Positions 190 to 9,098 of a stretch of 20,337 bases of DNA are shown here, one piece after another. The translations under genes were made by a program, and so were the position numbers. The notes under the pieces are model-generated. The model was not told where the DNA came from. It searched no databases and saw only the letters and a list, made by a program, of their open reading frames with translations. Numbering within the stretch: the first letter of the stretch is position 1; the number at the start of each line of letters is the position of its first letter. The stretch lies in IMG/VR virus record IMGVR_UViG_3300020477_000171, positions 1-20,337 of that record; one strand, written 5' to 3'. Source of the DNA: a virus.

Positions 190-205
190 AAATTTTGAAG
201 AGGAT

Positions 206-676
206 ATGTTAAAGCTTTTAAGTCAAAAAAATATAAAAGAAAATTGGAAAACATATAAACCACAAATAGAAAAAGCTTTTACTTCTTCCGAAGGATCACA
301 TTTAATTACAAGTACTGAGTCTGTTGATATATATAAAACGATTTATGGCAGACTAATGAATCCTTTTAATGAAGACACTCATTTATGGCTTTCAAAATAT
401 AATAATTATCTTTTATTGACTCAGATACAGGAATGTGAGTTTACTGGTAGAAGAACTATAATCCTTGAATCAGGAACTAGACTAAAAGATGTAGGTACAA
501 AAATAAGAGATAAATGGTATCATGATATCCATAGTACTATTTCAAAGTTTGCAAAGGAAAGAGGTTGCGTAGCAATGTACGTCTTTAGTGATTTAGATTA
601 TTTTCTAAAGGTTGCGGAGAAAACAAAAAAATGGAGTAATGTAATAACTCGTTACCAATTTTACTTTCCACTTTAA
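206..676 (+). CDS. Hypothetical protein, first copy of a tandem paralogous pair (possible GNAT-like fold)
   Basis: 156 residues, the same length as the next gene and alignable to it without a gap; I count about 83 identical positions. Conserved stretches are MLKLLSQ at the start, AFTSSEG (24-30), HLW, LTQIQ in the middle, TISKFA, SDLDYF, and RYQF.FPL at the end. The order (a solvent-exposed W, a hydrophobic strand LLLTQIQ, a second strand, then a helix followed by GC..M) recalls small phage proteins annotated as GNAT-like, but I see no clear acetyl-CoA loop (Q/RxxGxG/A), so enzymatic activity is doubtful. The ribosome-binding site GAGG (200-203) is only two bases from the ATG. It sits between two proteins sharing a basic C-terminal tag, upstream of the portal. 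Function unknown. Confidence 0.7.
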   Translation: MLKLLSQKNIKENWKTYKPQIEKAFTSSEGSHLITSTESVDIYKTIYGRLMNPFNEDTHLWLSKYNNYLLLTQIQECEFTGRRTIILESGTRLKDVGTKIRDKWYHDIHSTISKFAKERGCVAMYVFSDLDYFLKVAEKTKKWSNVITRYQFYFPL

Positions 677-684
677 GAGGATGA

Positions 685-4292: not shown

Positions 4293-4424
4293 TACGGAAG
4301 AACACACGAGAAAATTATTGCCCACTGAGGTGGATAACTTTAATTGAGGTACGATGTAGTTATAGCCGTAACTAAATTCGTGCTAGGTAAAACTAGCTAA
4401 ACTTAACCTTAATTAAAATAAATT
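4293..4424 (+). promoter_or_regulatory. 132-base capsid leader with three small hairpins; possible late promoter region
   Basis: This is the longest non-coding gap in the window and lies where T7 has its strongest late promoter, phi10. I see three short inverted repeats: CCAC/GTGG (4322-4333, 4 bp), TAGTTA/TAACTA (4357-4374, 6 bp, 6-base loop) and GCTAG/CTAGC (4382-4397, 5 bp, 6-base loop). None is followed by a T run, so they are not typical terminators. The 7-mer TAATACG (4290-4296), the first seven bases of the T7 promoter, overlaps the scaffold stop codon, but the rest of that consensus is poorly kept. The stretch just before the capsid ATG is A/T-rich with TTAATTAA (4409-4416) and no Shine-Dalgarno sequence. 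A regulatory role is inferred from position and structure. Confidence 0.45.
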
Positions 4425-5606
4425 ATGGCAGACAATTATACTGGTCACCGATCTGGTATGGTCAATGCGGCTAATAACTCTAGAGCGTTATTTCTAAAGT
4501 TATATGCCGGAGAGGTCATGACCGCCTTTCAGACCAAGAATATAATGATGAATTATTGTCGAACCCGAAACATTAAGTCAGGTAAATCGGCTCAATTCAT
4601 CATGACAGGTAAACATAGGACAGCTGCATATCATACTCCTGGAAATGAGATTGTTCCAAATGTTGCTGCTAAACATTCAGAGAGAGTAGTCACGATTGAT
4701 GATCTCCTGATTGTTCATCAATTCATTCCAAATATTGATGAAGCAATGGCTCATTATGATATACGTTCTGTCTATACTCAGGAAGCCGCTTATGGATTAG
4801 CCAAAGCTGCTGACCAAAACATTCTCAGAACGGCTATTAAAGCTGCTTTGACAACTAACAAGGAACGTGCAGGAAAATTAGTTCAAGATTATAACGCATG
4901 GGATGATGAAGATTTCACTCCAAATGTTGTTTATTCTAGTACTAGCTTTGCAAATTCTTTAAAATCTTCAAATTTCTTTGAAGGTGTTCTGGAAGCAAAG
5001 CGTATCCTTGAGAGTGCAGGAGCACCTTTAGATGATCTGGTATGTATAGTAAGTACCGATCTTTTCTATGAGATGTTTAAAGCAGGTTCAAATAGTGAAG
5101 CAACAACCTCACTACATATGTTTAATACAGACATTGGTGGTAAGGGTTCTCTAGTAGATGCAAACATGCCTAATATTGCAGGAATTCCTGTAGTTAGAAC
5201 TCCTCATATGGGTAGTGGAACTCGTTCAGCATGGACAGATTCTCTTTGGAGTACTGGTGCAACAACTGGTGCCGCTCCATTAGGTGCAGCTGAATCTAAC
5301 AGGGCAACTGTTTATGATCTTCCTGCTAACTATAATGCCGCATCAAATGGAGATAACTTAGTTGGTCCTACTGGCGGTACTGATGCAAACGGAGCAGCTG
5401 TAGCTTTGCGTACTGAAGGCACAAAAGTTCGTGCTTTAGTTATGAATAGAGATGCAGTAGCAACTGTGAAACTATTAGACCTTTCGGTTGAGACAGATTA
5501 TATGGTCAATCGTCAGGGAACATTAATTGTTTCTAAGTATGCAATGGGTCATAACGTACTACGACCAGCAATGGCTGTAGCATTATCATCCTCGCATATT
5601 GCATAA
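4425..5606 (+). CDS. Major capsid protein (T7 gp10-like)
   Basis: 393 residues against 345 for T7 gp10A; it forms the icosahedral shell with the HK97-type fold. Family signatures include the IKSGKSAQFIMTGKHRTAAYH and TPGNEI region (about 50-77), RVVTIDDLLIVHQFIPNIDE followed by AMAHYDIR (about 87-115), and near the end VATVKLLDLSVE, then IVSKYAMGHNVLRPAMAVAL. There is no canonical ribosome-binding site before the ATG, odd for what should be the most abundant product. The 5' third uses more G/C-ending codons than its neighbours, which may reflect high expression. I see no sign of a T7 gp10B-style frameshift: a CCTTTTT run lies just after the stop codon. Confidence 0.95.
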   Translation: MADNYTGHRSGMVNAANNSRALFLKLYAGEVMTAFQTKNIMMNYCRTRNIKSGKSAQFIMTGKHRTAAYHTPGNEIVPNVAAKHSERVVTIDDLLIVHQFIPNIDEAMAHYDIRSVYTQEAAYGLAKAADQNILRTAIKAALTTNKERAGKLVQDYNAWDDEDFTPNVVYSSTSFANSLKSSNFFEGVLEAKRILESAGAPLDDLVCIVSTDLFYEMFKAGSNSEATTSLHMFNTDIGGKGSLVDANMPNIAGIPVVRTPHMGSGTRSAWTDSLWSTGATTGAAPLGAAESNRATVYDLPANYNAASNGDNLVGPTGGTDANGAAVALRTEGTKVRALVMNRDAVATVKLLDLSVETDYMVNRQGTLIVSKYAMGHNVLRPAMAVALSSSHIA

Positions 5607-5613
5607 CCTTTTT

Positions 5614-5652
5614 GTGGGATGTAGTTTATCCTCTTGCTATGTCCCACGTTTT
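5614..5652 (+). terminator. Hairpin 1 after the capsid gene (late terminator candidate)
   Basis: An 11-bp stem: left arm GTGGGATGTAG (5614-5624), right arm CTATGTCCCAC (5637-5647), with two G.U pairs in the RNA and a 12-base loop. It is followed by GTTTT. It starts eight bases after the capsid stop, the same place as the T7 late terminator between genes 10 and 11. The short, interrupted T run makes it a partial terminator or an RNA-processing/stability hairpin. Confidence 0.65.
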
Positions 5653-5700
5653 GTAGAGGGGTGAAAGTAGTTCTCCATACCCCTCTACTCTCCTTTCCTC
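5653..5700 (+). terminator. Hairpin 2 after the capsid gene (tandem late terminator candidate)
   Basis: An 11-bp stem: GTAGAGGGGTG (5653-5663) with TACCCCTCTAC (5678-5688), ten Watson-Crick pairs plus one closing G.U, and a 14-base loop. It is followed by a pyrimidine-rich tail TCTCCTTTCCTC rather than a pure T run. It begins six bases after hairpin 1 ends, so the two form a tandem pair. It is likely to cut read-through into the tail genes or protect the 3' end of capsid mRNA. Confidence 0.65.
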
Positions 5701-5721
5701 AATTTAATTAATCCTCAAAAT

Positions 5722-6351
5722 ATGGCTATATCCAAAACTACTAAACTAGATGCTATTAATTCCATGCTTATTGGAATTGGAGAAGCTCCTGTGAATACAC
5801 TTAACTCAGGACTTCAAGAAGCTGAAGTAGCTGCCATACTCCTTGATAACGTATCTCGTGAAGTCCAATCAGCTTGCTGGTCTTTTAATACTGATTTACG
5901 TTATAAATTAGGTACAAATTCTGATAAACATATTGTACTTCCTTCCAATACTTTAGTAGTCGATACAACAAAATTAAAAAGAGATTACAATACAGATGTA
6001 ATAGAACGAAATGGTAAATTGTATGACCGAACAAAAAATAGTTTTGAATTTGATGATGAAGTAGAAGTTGATATTACATACCTTTTTGATTTTGAAGAAC
6101 TACCTGAAATAGCAAGACGATATATTACATTAAGAGCAGGAAGAAAATTCCAAGAAAATACTCTTGGTTCTAGTGAAATGACTCAACTTCAATTTAAAGA
6201 TGAGCAAGCAGCTTTAATAAATCTAAAAGATTTTGAATCTCAGACTGCTGATTATAATATTTTTGATAACTATGATACTTATGCAGCAGTGGATAGAGGT
6301 TTAGGTTCTCCTGTGAATACACTTGATACTCAACGAAGACTATATTCCTGA
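5722..6351 (+). CDS. Tail tubular protein A (T7 gp11-like)
   Basis: 209 residues; T7 gp11 has 196. This protein forms the ring between the portal and the tail nozzle. The start MAISKTTKLDAINSMLIGIG and then EAPVNTLNSG.QEAEVAAILLDNVSREVQS are typical of the family, as is the later helical block EELPEIARRYITLRAGRKFQ (about 135-154). There is no ribosome-binding site: the leader is CAATTTAATTAATCCTCAAAAT. It is the first gene after the tandem hairpins and begins the tail operon. Tail tube B follows after two bases. Confidence 0.93.
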   Translation: MAISKTTKLDAINSMLIGIGEAPVNTLNSGLQEAEVAAILLDNVSREVQSACWSFNTDLRYKLGTNSDKHIVLPSNTLVVDTTKLKRDYNTDVIERNGKLYDRTKNSFEFDDEVEVDITYLFDFEELPEIARRYITLRAGRKFQENTLGSSEMTQLQFKDEQAALINLKDFESQTADYNIFDNYDTYAAVDRGLGSPVNTLDTQRRLYS

Positions 6352-6353
6352 TT

Positions 6354-9098
6354 ATGCCTTTAATTTCTAGCTCTATACCTAATTTAATTAATGGGATTTC
6401 CCAACAACCAGCAGAAATTAGGTTACCATCACAAGGAGAACGACAAATAAATGGTTTAAGCTCAGTTGCTAGAGGTTTAGAAAAAAGACCGGGAACAGAA
6501 CACAAAGCAAAACTCTCTAGTACTGCGGAATCAGATTCTTTTGTTCATAGTATACGAAGAGATAGAGATGAAGAATATACTATGATTCTCAGTAGAGCTT
6601 CAAATGGTACTAAAAATCTTGAGATATATGATCAAGATGGTACGTCTATTCCTGTAAAATCTGCACCTACTGCAAATGCTTCCACTTCTACAAATGATAT
6701 TACAAATTCAGATTTATCATATCTTGAAACTACTTCAGTAAAAGATAATATAGTAGCCACAACAGTTGCAGATACTACTTTTCTTATTAATAAAACAATT
6801 ACAGTAGAAAAAGCTACCCAAGATAGTGAGGTATCAGGAGAAGGGACAACATCATATTTATCTCCCAGAGGTTCAGATAATTGGACTAGTACTTATGATT
6901 ATGAAGGATTAATTAATATTAAAGTTGGGGATTATAGTTCAAAGTATGTTGTAATTTTAAAGCCTAAAGGAGGAACACTTAGCGGAAATACTTATAAAGT
7001 AGGATTTCAAACTCCTGCATCTAATGTTGCTCTTAACCAAAAATATGTAGCTACTCCTGTTATTGCAAAAATTATAAAAGAAGGATCTAGTGCTATTAGT
7101 GTTGCTGGTACAGATCATTGGGATTCTTTCAGTCAAGGAACTCCAGCCGAAGGTTTTGGAGGATGGAAACCTACTGCTGGAAGAAATGAAGATGGAGAAA
7201 CTGGTAACTCAGAATATTATAATGGTTTGAATGCTATAGCATCAGGAACTCTTGCTAATAGTCCATTTACATTTACATTAGAAGCTAGTAAAAGTGTTAT
7301 TGTTATAAAAAGTACAGAGCCTTTTGAAATTGAAACTGCTGATTCTCATGGTGGTAATGATGTAATAGGAATCACAACAAGTACAACTTCTTTTTCAAAA
7401 CTTCCGGGAACAGGAGCACCTAATAATTATATTGTAAAAATTGCAGGAAGTAGTGATGCAACTCAAGATGATTTTTATGTTAAATATAATAAGACTGAAG
7501 AGAACTGGAAAGAAACTCTTGGTTTTGATGTAAATGAAACTACATTAGTATCTAGCGGTATAGTAACAGGTTTTAATATGTTCACTATGCCTCATAGATT
7601 GATAAGGTTGTATGATAATCAAGGAACTCCTAATAAATATTTTCTTTTTGAACCAGTAAAAGAAGCTTCAGCTTCTAATGGAGCACCTGATCGTTATGGA
7701 TGGTCTTCTAGAAAATCAGGAGATGATACATCTAATCCATTTCCATCTTTTACAGGAGGAAAAATAAATGATATATGTTTTCATAAGAACCGCTTTGGAG
7801 TCCTTAGTGATGAAAATATTATATTTTCTGTTGCAGGAAACTTCTACAATTTTTTTCCTATTTCTGTAATGACAGGATTGGAAAGTAATCCTATTGATAT
7901 TTCAGTATCGAATAATGAAGTTTCTATACTTAAACATGCTGCAGCATTTGACCAAAGTTTACTACTTTTCTCAGACTTTCAGCAATTTAGTTTAAATAGT
8001 AGTGATGGTGCATTCACTCCTTCTAATGTCTCAGTAGACGTTGTAACTCAATTTGAAAGTACTTCAGAAGCTCCTCCTATTTCTTCTGGTAAATTTGTTT
8101 ATTTCCCATTTAAACGTGGTGAGTATTCAGGAGTAAGAGAATACTTTGTTGATATAGGGTCGGCAGATTCTAATGATGCTACAGATATTACTGCTCATGT
8201 ACCTCAATATATTAAAGGTACTATTAGTAAGATGGTGGTAAGTTCTACTGATCAAATGATAGCAGTATTAAGTACTGATGATACTAAACGAGTTTATATT
8301 TATAAAAACTTTTGGACAGGTCAGGAAAAAATACAAAACTCTTGGAGTCATTGGGTATTTGATGGAGACATTCTTAACTGTGCATTCTTAGGATCGACTT
8401 TAAAGTTACTTGTAAAGAGAGCAGATGGTTTATATTTAGAAGATATTAATTTAAGTTTAGATTCCGCAGAAGCAGTTATGGAAGATAAAACTTCTGTACT
8501 TTTAGATAGGAGAGTTAAATTAACTTATGCTTCAAACTTTACTCTCTCAGCTTCTAATCTTCCTTACTATGCAAATAAACCTAGTAACATGGTCTATGTT
8601 ACAGACAATGCAAGAAAACTAATTACAGAAGCAGAGGTTAATGAATATTTATCAGATTCAAATAATCAAGATAATGTAGTATATGCAGGAATTCCATATA
8701 CTTTTGAATATGAATTCTCTAGATTTATTCATAAAGAAAATGATCTTCCAGTACAAACAGCTAAACTTCAAGTTAGGAATATTAACTTACTTTACAATAA
8801 TACTGGATTCTTTAATGTAAAAGTTAATGTAACTCCAGGAACTATTAAGATTCCAGATGGGTCTGGAGGAACTACTACTGTAACTCCTCGTACAAATTAC
8901 TCTAAAAACTTCTCAGGAATGCTCACTAACACTTCTGCTTTTGGTGAGTATAAATTGCTCTCAGGGACCTTCAAAAGCTCCGTCATGACAAATAGTTCTA
9001 ACTGTAATATTATATTAGAGAATGATCAATACTTGCCGTGTGCCTTTCAGAGTGCAGAATGGGAAGGATTCTTACACAAGAGAAATACAAGAGTATAG
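6354..9098 (+). CDS. Tail tubular protein B (tail nozzle, T7 gp12-like)
   Basis: 914 residues against 794 in T7 gp12. It forms the hexameric nozzle below the gp11 ring. The N-terminus is diagnostic: SSIPNLINGISQQPAEIRLP, then GERQINGLSSVARGLEKRPGTE. Other family traits are the segment DICFHKNRFGVLSDENIIFS (about 475-495) and the following residues DISVSNNEVSILKHAAAFDQ (about 518-537). The extra length seems to lie in the Gly/Ser/Thr-rich region of about residues 160-350. The start lies two bases after the tail tube A stop with no clear ribosome-binding site, so coupling is likely. The stop TAG is directly followed by the next ATG. Confidence 0.94.
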   Translation: MPLISSSIPNLINGISQQPAEIRLPSQGERQINGLSSVARGLEKRPGTEHKAKLSSTAESDSFVHSIRRDRDEEYTMILSRASNGTKNLEIYDQDGTSIPVKSAPTANASTSTNDITNSDLSYLETTSVKDNIVATTVADTTFLINKTITVEKATQDSEVSGEGTTSYLSPRGSDNWTSTYDYEGLINIKVGDYSSKYVVILKPKGGTLSGNTYKVGFQTPASNVALNQKYVATPVIAKIIKEGSSAISVAGTDHWDSFSQGTPAEGFGGWKPTAGRNEDGETGNSEYYNGLNAIASGTLANSPFTFTLEASKSVIVIKSTEPFEIETADSHGGNDVIGITTSTTSFSKLPGTGAPNNYIVKIAGSSDATQDDFYVKYNKTEENWKETLGFDVNETTLVSSGIVTGFNMFTMPHRLIRLYDNQGTPNKYFLFEPVKEASASNGAPDRYGWSSRKSGDDTSNPFPSFTGGKINDICFHKNRFGVLSDENIIFSVAGNFYNFFPISVMTGLESNPIDISVSNNEVSILKHAAAFDQSLLLFSDFQQFSLNSSDGAFTPSNVSVDVVTQFESTSEAPPISSGKFVYFPFKRGEYSGVREYFVDIGSADSNDATDITAHVPQYIKGTISKMVVSSTDQMIAVLSTDDTKRVYIYKNFWTGQEKIQNSWSHWVFDGDILNCAFLGSTLKLLVKRADGLYLEDINLSLDSAEAVMEDKTSVLLDRRVKLTYASNFTLSASNLPYYANKPSNMVYVTDNARKLITEAEVNEYLSDSNNQDNVVYAGIPYTFEYEFSRFIHKENDLPVQTAKLQVRNINLLYNNTGFFNVKVNVTPGTIKIPDGSGGTTTVTPRTNYSKNFSGMLTNTSAFGEYKLLSGTFKSSVMTNSSNCNIILENDQYLPCAFQSAEWEGFLHKRNTRV

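Follow-up and report, generated by a model that had tools for sequence, protein, structure and literature searches.

Tandem hairpins between phage capsid and tail genes display anti-Shine-Dalgarno loops and may repress early genes

The short stretch between the capsid and tail tubular protein A genes of this marine phage lineage contains two tandem hairpins, and their apical loops are complementary to the Shine-Dalgarno (SD) variants that stand before many genes of the same clade. Comparison of start regions makes it very likely that this match between loop and SD within a clade holds. We think it rather probable that early and middle genes are repressed by this element, acting as an anti-SD RNA within the late capsid transcript.

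Two stable hairpins follow the capsid gene

In the window (the whole 20,337-nt stretch of viral DNA analysed), 115 nt containing two hairpins separate the capsid gene from the next tail gene (5722–6351; Table 1). The latter codes for a tail protein (phrog_446), which gene order in annotated relatives identifies as tail tubular protein A. In hairpin 1, positions 5614–5624 pair with 5637–5647 in 11 pairs, two of them G-U, with a possible U-G closing pair in addition; in hairpin 2, positions 5653–5662 pair with 5679–5688 in 10 Watson-Crick pairs, to which the minimum free energy (MFE) fold adds one G-U pair. The original prediction, made from the DNA sequence, of two hairpins in tandem directly 3' of the capsid gene is confirmed, with 11 pairs in the first and 10–11 in the second, and the folding energies that it named as a check agree: the intergenic region has an MFE of −36.0 kcal/mol, its shuffled versions averaging −18.1 (sd 3.0; z −5.9), and none of 200 shuffles is as stable. 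Taken singly, the hairpins have z scores of −6.6 (hairpin 1) and −3.9 (hairpin 2), each again unequalled in 200 shuffles. The minus strand of the region folds more weakly (−29.7, z −3.7), which fits use of the G-U pairs in plus-strand RNA, and these pairs themselves point to such an RNA.

A terminator scan of the window listed nothing at either stem, and the earlier observation that neither hairpin is followed by a clean T run was borne out. The same prediction had correctly described GTTTT and then a C/T-rich tail; up to the next ATG this tail is also free of G in all 20 distinct tails examined. Among Rfam covariance models run on window positions 4300–6400 none matched at the element, the one match up to E 1 falling inside the capsid gene below the gathering score, and BLASTN of the intergenic region against phage records gave no match up to E 10. 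The loop 1 pattern occurs once per contig in six clade-A contigs (coding strand) and once in the window, with no second copy of the element found.

Table 1. Coordinates of the post-capsid element, its neighbours and its predicted targets in the window; duplex energies are for bare duplexes
Feature	Position	Strand	Remarks
Predicted target AAGAGGAT, abutting the ATG of ORF 206–676	198..205	+	Loop 1 duplex −12.5 versus −6.3 kcal/mol for the canonical 16S tail
Predicted target AAGAGGAT before ORF 685–1155	675..682	+	Loop 1 duplex −14.2 versus −7.9 kcal/mol for the canonical 16S tail
Major capsid gene, transcript expected to include the element	4425..5606	+	phrog_267; leader without target motif
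Hairpin 1	5614..5647	+	11-bp stem, loop conserved as TTNATCCTCTTG; 165/165 cells paired, 15 distinct rows
Loop 1 anti-SD	5628..5635	+	ATCCTCTT, complement of AAGAGGAT; start-region matches
Hairpin 2	5653..5688	+	10–11-bp stem, constant 5' arm GTAGAGG, loop conserved as AGTTCTCCAT
Loop 2 anti-SD	5670..5676	+	GTTCTCC, complement of GGAGAAC; start-region matches
G-free, SD-less leader of the tail tubular protein A gene	5689..5721	+	No G in 20 distinct tails

Stems covary and loops stay constant

A capsid protein search of IMG/VR gave 64 loci, and the tandem element follows the capsid gene in 27 of them; two loci (L005, L034) are cut off inside the tandem, three (L039, L040, L064) end before it, and 32 differ at this site. 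Further searches added loci, one of the added lists being the best 80 of more. The pattern scan for the element also gives chance matches, and only loci with a paired stem were counted as having it.

Pairing is conserved in these relatives. The hairpin 1 alignment comprises 16 rows chosen from A loci, 15 of them distinct. Changes on both sides of the stem occur in 10 of its 11 pairs, every pair cell (165/165) is standard, and none is broken. The covariation score of 0.542 exceeds the value of 0.371 in shuffles (0/500 as high) and falls to at most 0.230 when the pairing is slid. Above this variable stem, loop 1 is constant except at N, a constancy partly built in because the A rows were selected by ATCCTCTTG; no tandem with another loop 1 was seen among the folds listed for relatives. 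Loop 2 played no part in picking the elements and is invariant in 20 distinct ones. Hairpin 2 shows little covariation in its outer stem, which hardly varies because the GTAGAGG arm is constant. We regard it as nearly certain that the tandem hairpin structure is real and under selection.

The constant arm (5653–5659) is itself of note, as the rest of the hairpin 2 stem varies around it; its AGAGG has a second potential partner in the CCUCU of loop 1.

Post-capsid elements differ among relatives

Four types of post-capsid element, A to D, were named by eye, and further types exist. Type or clade A is the tandem of the window, with an intergenic distance of 111–126 nt wherever the tail gene is present (the start in L006 being corrected). 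Type B, that of a sister clade, is one long stem with the apical loop CCUUCCU (e.g. L026, L028, L232), often preceding a T-rich stretch; type C has a large C-rich loop (e.g. L189, L203, L204); and type D has the short loop and T run of a classical terminator (e.g. L018, L227, L244). The full set of loci in which a hairpin and then a T run occupy the post-capsid site comprises L018, L042, L200, L202, L227 and L236–L246.

These relatives bear on a reading close to the original prediction, in which the phage's single-subunit RNA polymerase would partly terminate at the element and so fix the ratio of capsid to tail transcripts, the anti-SD loops being incidental. Such a polymerase is encoded in the lineage (phrog_414 in G004), outside the window. 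Position fits this reading, the T7-type late terminator T16 of LUZ100 lying directly 3' of the MCP gene and resembling the element in place and hairpins, and so do the hairpins with T runs at this site in clade D and the T-rich stretches 3' of many clade B stems. Unlike LUZ100 T16, clade A has constant anti-SD loops and no U run. Judged against T7-type class I intrinsic terminators, its transcript includes a stable post-capsid hairpin, whereas the U run directly after the stem is missing, stem 1 being followed across the clade by no more than short, interrupted runs of T. Given also the empty terminator scan, and given that termination needs neither constant loops nor loops that match SDs of the same clade, we consider a terminator unlikely to be the function of the element. 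A combination of termination and anti-SD action would agree with either reading.

Several other post-capsid elements were observed. In clade C loci (L189, L190, L194, L195, L203, L204, L213), a long stem is capped by a large loop without G (CTCCACCC..CTCCCACACACCTCTCG), which looks anti-SD-like. No clear set of start-region partners for it was found in the C contigs scanned, and clade C was rejected as a third loop/SD pair. At the post-capsid site of pelagiphages and their relatives (L281 21217, L282 20641, L054–L059) are hairpins whose constant loop is a different one, TTAACACWGACAA; few 8-nt complements to it were found, none standing out as a start-region set. HTVC011P has two hairpins in tandem. 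One contig (L012/L196) combines an A-type capsid leader with a B-type post-capsid element, as in a recombinant. Capsid relatives that are 46% and 44% identical (L257 and L258) are found within a Rhodobiaceae MAG and a Poseidoniales single-cell genome, and the contigs that bear them may be phage contigs caught with those assemblies.

Loops match the SD variants of their own clade

Loop 1 presents AUCCUCUU, the reverse complement of AAGAGGAT, and loop 2 presents GUUCUCC, the reverse complement of GGAGAAC. ORFs were called greedily on nine A, three B, three C and three D contigs, the start region being the 22 nt upstream of either the first ATG or the start with the best canonical SD; SD-chosen family counts are preferred, those from first ATGs being inflatable where starts differ. 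By gene family with SD-chosen starts, AAGAGGAT is the commonest NNGAGGNN variant of clade A (12 families, 23 start regions), and GGAGAAC is its commonest GGAGNNN variant (21 families, 36 start regions). The commonest AGGANNN variant of clade B is AGGAAGG (12 families, 18 start regions), which complements the apical loop of that clade. None of these three leads in C or D, and first-ATG starts give the same ranks. With first-ATG starts, A-motif and B-motif start regions stand at 49:1 of 294 in A, 0:20 of 108 in B, 1:0 of 157 in C and 1:2 of 110 in D; these counts take in related, non-independent contigs, so Fisher p values come out too small. Among the 58 and 43 annotated starts of two pelagiphage controls, AAGAGGAT and AGGAAGG do not occur, and GGAGAAC occurs once in the first and not in the second.

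Part of the signal is generic anti-SD complementarity, since the A loops match, over at least 7 nt, 18/115 start regions in D as well as 103/308 in A. A paired test that took in the full set of 32 families common to A and B, the majority of which have no such motif, gave no significant result (18 up, 12 down, 2 ties, p 0.16); the tail tubular A family was left out of it because the element lies inside its start region. Counts of AAGAGGAT in 10 whole contigs showed no clear excess over a reversed control, and for this reason start regions and SD flanks were tested instead.

Held-out contigs provide a further comparison. A search with the clade-A primase gave 32 loci, of which six (on contigs already used or near copies) were dropped and 26 kept; all 26 have a primase that, of the four clades, is closest to A, and none includes the element. 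In these A-like contigs the A motif occurs in 27/139 new start regions and the B motif in one. GGAGAAC is again the top GGAGNNN variant, in 22 of the 67 start regions with GGAG; AAGAGGAT, in 5 of the 52 with GAGG, does not lead among the NNGAGGNN variants. Among held-out loci centred on the capsid gene, those of clade B have the B motif in 10/72 start regions and the A motif in none, those of clade D have the A motif in 2/123 and the B motif in none, and both motifs are absent from the C loci (0/17) and from the A loci, which hold mostly late genes (0/95).

The complementarity can also be placed along the DNA. The profile of 7-nt complements along each phage's own element is highest over the apical loops in both A and B. 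A scan was also run over every 80-nt stretch, on the transcribed strand only, using 7-mers with at least 3 G/C, a filter introduced after the unfiltered scan was seen, to drop U-rich windows. With the filter, no other 80 nt is as SD-complementary as the element in 7/8 A contigs, and in the eighth there is a tie; in contig G001 it reaches 18/41 start regions, the best stretch elsewhere reaching 11. Without the filter it ranks first in 4/8 A contigs at 7 nt and in 2/8 at 8 nt, and at 8 nt the element of one clade-C contig (G012) also ranks first, partly via its U-rich flank. Stretches as good as the element number 0 to 6 in B contigs and 1 to 42 in C contigs. In the 20-kb window, which holds mostly late genes and two clear targets, the element does not stand out in the scan. 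A random-window null on two strands was dropped in favour of these one-strand scans because both strands include complements of the SDs themselves.

Protein-binding sites, too, typically combine a constant loop with a stem that varies, and the loops could instead bind a phage or host protein for processing or RNA stability, their anti-SD likeness reflecting generic pyrimidine-rich composition. The pelagiphage hairpin, whose own constant loop has no SD match seen, and the C-rich loop of clade C, which has no SD partners, would be in keeping with this. However, the SD flanks of A and B match the loop of their own clade, again in held-out contigs, and we judge a protein site to be improbable.

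Predicted targets and their place in the genome

Several start sites are predicted targets in the clade, and two of these lie in the window itself (Table 1), before tandem paralogs of 156 aa; the first paralog, when searched, had no PHROG match. The 157–161-aa protein family of unknown function has AAGAGGAT in 9/9 clade A members. GGAGAAC precedes the ssDNA-binding protein in 7/7 and the methyltransferase family in 4/7 members, two of the seven being pieces in G002. The exonuclease has AAGAGGA or AAGAGGAT in 5/8 and GGAGAAC in 2/8, and the use of either A motif by the same gene suggests that the two addresses may be interchangeable. Matches to loop 1 extend over 7–8 nt in 4/7 primase genes, and 7-nt matches are present in 5/7 ribonucleotide reductase and 4/7 RNAP genes. 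Clade B has GGAAGG or GGAAGAGA instead, before the 157–161-aa protein (2/2), scaffold (3/3) and exonuclease (3/3); the SDs of several orthologous genes thereby switch between A and B together with the loop. The primase and ssDNA-binding protein genes of B have neither GGAAGG nor GGAAGAGA, and one B start region (RNAP of G008, inner start) has AAGAGGAT.

In five A contigs, a 7- or 8-nt A motif is present for 58/168 genes located up to the end of the capsid gene and for 0/47 beyond it. Scaffold is an exception among late genes, having the clade motif in both A and B. None of 21 distinct capsid leaders in A and none of 12 in B has the motif of its own clade (one B leader, in L030, probably has a wrong start); another SD-like GG is present in 9/21 A capsid leaders. 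RNAduplex energies, which describe bare duplexes without accessibility costs and use a canonical 16S tail that may not be the host's, favour loop 2 over 16S at the G004 start regions of the ssDNA-binding protein (−12.2 vs −8.2) and the methyltransferase (−14.4 vs −8.2), and the scaffold start region of the window, a non-target, prefers 16S (−12.4 vs −9.1).

Two further features were observed upstream of the capsid gene. A single-copy block at 4313–4346, between the scaffold and capsid genes, reads AATTATTGCCC[AT]CTGAGG[AT]GGATAACTTTAATTG and is conserved in clade-A contigs, with a variant form in clade B and a compensatory exchange of CCAC/GTGG to CCTC/GAGG; its role may be that of a structured RNA within the capsid leader or of a local promoter. 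A second small hairpin, GCTAG-gtaaaa-CTAGC, lies at 4382–4397 before the capsid ATG and is followed by a G-free leader without an SD. A repeated promoter motif upstream of the capsid gene was found neither in the window nor by pattern searches.

A putative RNA switch from early to late genes

The constant loops of clade A are left unexplained by termination or by protection of RNA 3' ends, the two functions originally suggested, and their match to SDs points to antisense control. In the mechanism that we propose, the DNA separating the capsid gene from the tail tubular A gene would encode a structured RNA with two anti-SD hairpins, whose loops would display AUCCUCUU and GUUCUCC, the complements of the lineage SD variants AAGAGGAU and GGAGAAC. 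These variants precede many putative early and middle genes (methyltransferase, ssDNA-binding protein, primase, exonuclease, ribonucleotide reductase and small ORFs). The capsid transcript, or a piece of it that ends at the hairpins through processing or termination, would become abundant late in infection; the loops would then pair in trans with the target SDs, outcompete 16S rRNA and stop translation. Capsid and tail genes would escape because their leaders, on this proposal, do not have these SD variants. Repression in trans by the element is likely; we infer its abundance, pairing in trans, repressive effect and timing from sequence comparison. Complementarity is symmetrical, and early mRNAs might conversely bind the loops to control the stability, termination or translation of the capsid or tail transcript, but the paired site is the SD itself, where the ribosome would be blocked, and we consider this reverse action very improbable.

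Known systems share some of the properties of this putative anti-SD element. The alpha-r14/NfeR1 RNAs of alpha-proteobacteria are described as having several hairpins with a constant unpaired anti-SD motif on stems that differ in sequence, the redundant motifs blocking the translation starts of many mRNAs (PMC10746234). The phage element likewise has constant anti-SD motifs in unpaired hairpin regions with varied stems, hairpin 1 being the case in which a constant motif sits on a demonstrably variable stem. As that account presents it, however, alpha-r14/NfeR1 is a bacterial stress or symbiosis RNA with one identical CCUCCUCCC motif, whereas the present element is phage-encoded, lies after the capsid gene, and has two different motifs tuned to phage SD variants, with another motif in the sister clade. 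Membership of the alpha-r14 family by descent was rejected, as the identical CCUCCUCCC motif is absent and the loops are ATCCTCTT and GTTCTCC.

Phage T4 shuts off early mRNAs at the translation start with RegB and RegA, RegB cutting GGAG in SDs according to the account in PMC3014915. Those regulators are proteins, whereas here an RNA is proposed for the same late shut-off at the SD. Known phage regulatory RNAs such as lambda OOP, PreS and VpdS are phage-encoded base-pairing RNAs, as the element is proposed to be; those in the passages considered from PMC12197685 are antisense, single-target or host-directed, and none is described as an SD-wide switch. A search of open-access literature other than preprints found no report of a comparable RNA switch in a phage.

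The broadest form of the proposal is an early-to-late switch made of RNA only, in which two interchangeable addresses in the SDs of early and middle genes would be answered by matching anti-addresses on the capsid transcript, so that production of capsid RNA would turn those genes off, and in which loops and SDs would have moved together to another address in the sister clade; we see this as evenly poised between right and wrong. If true, a phage would have an RNA as its temporal switch, in the role that RegA and RegB play in T4, and the proposal would account for the many SDs that pair better with the phage's own loop than with the canonical 16S tail. It would also yield target predictions gene by gene, and exchange of the loops should retarget repression.
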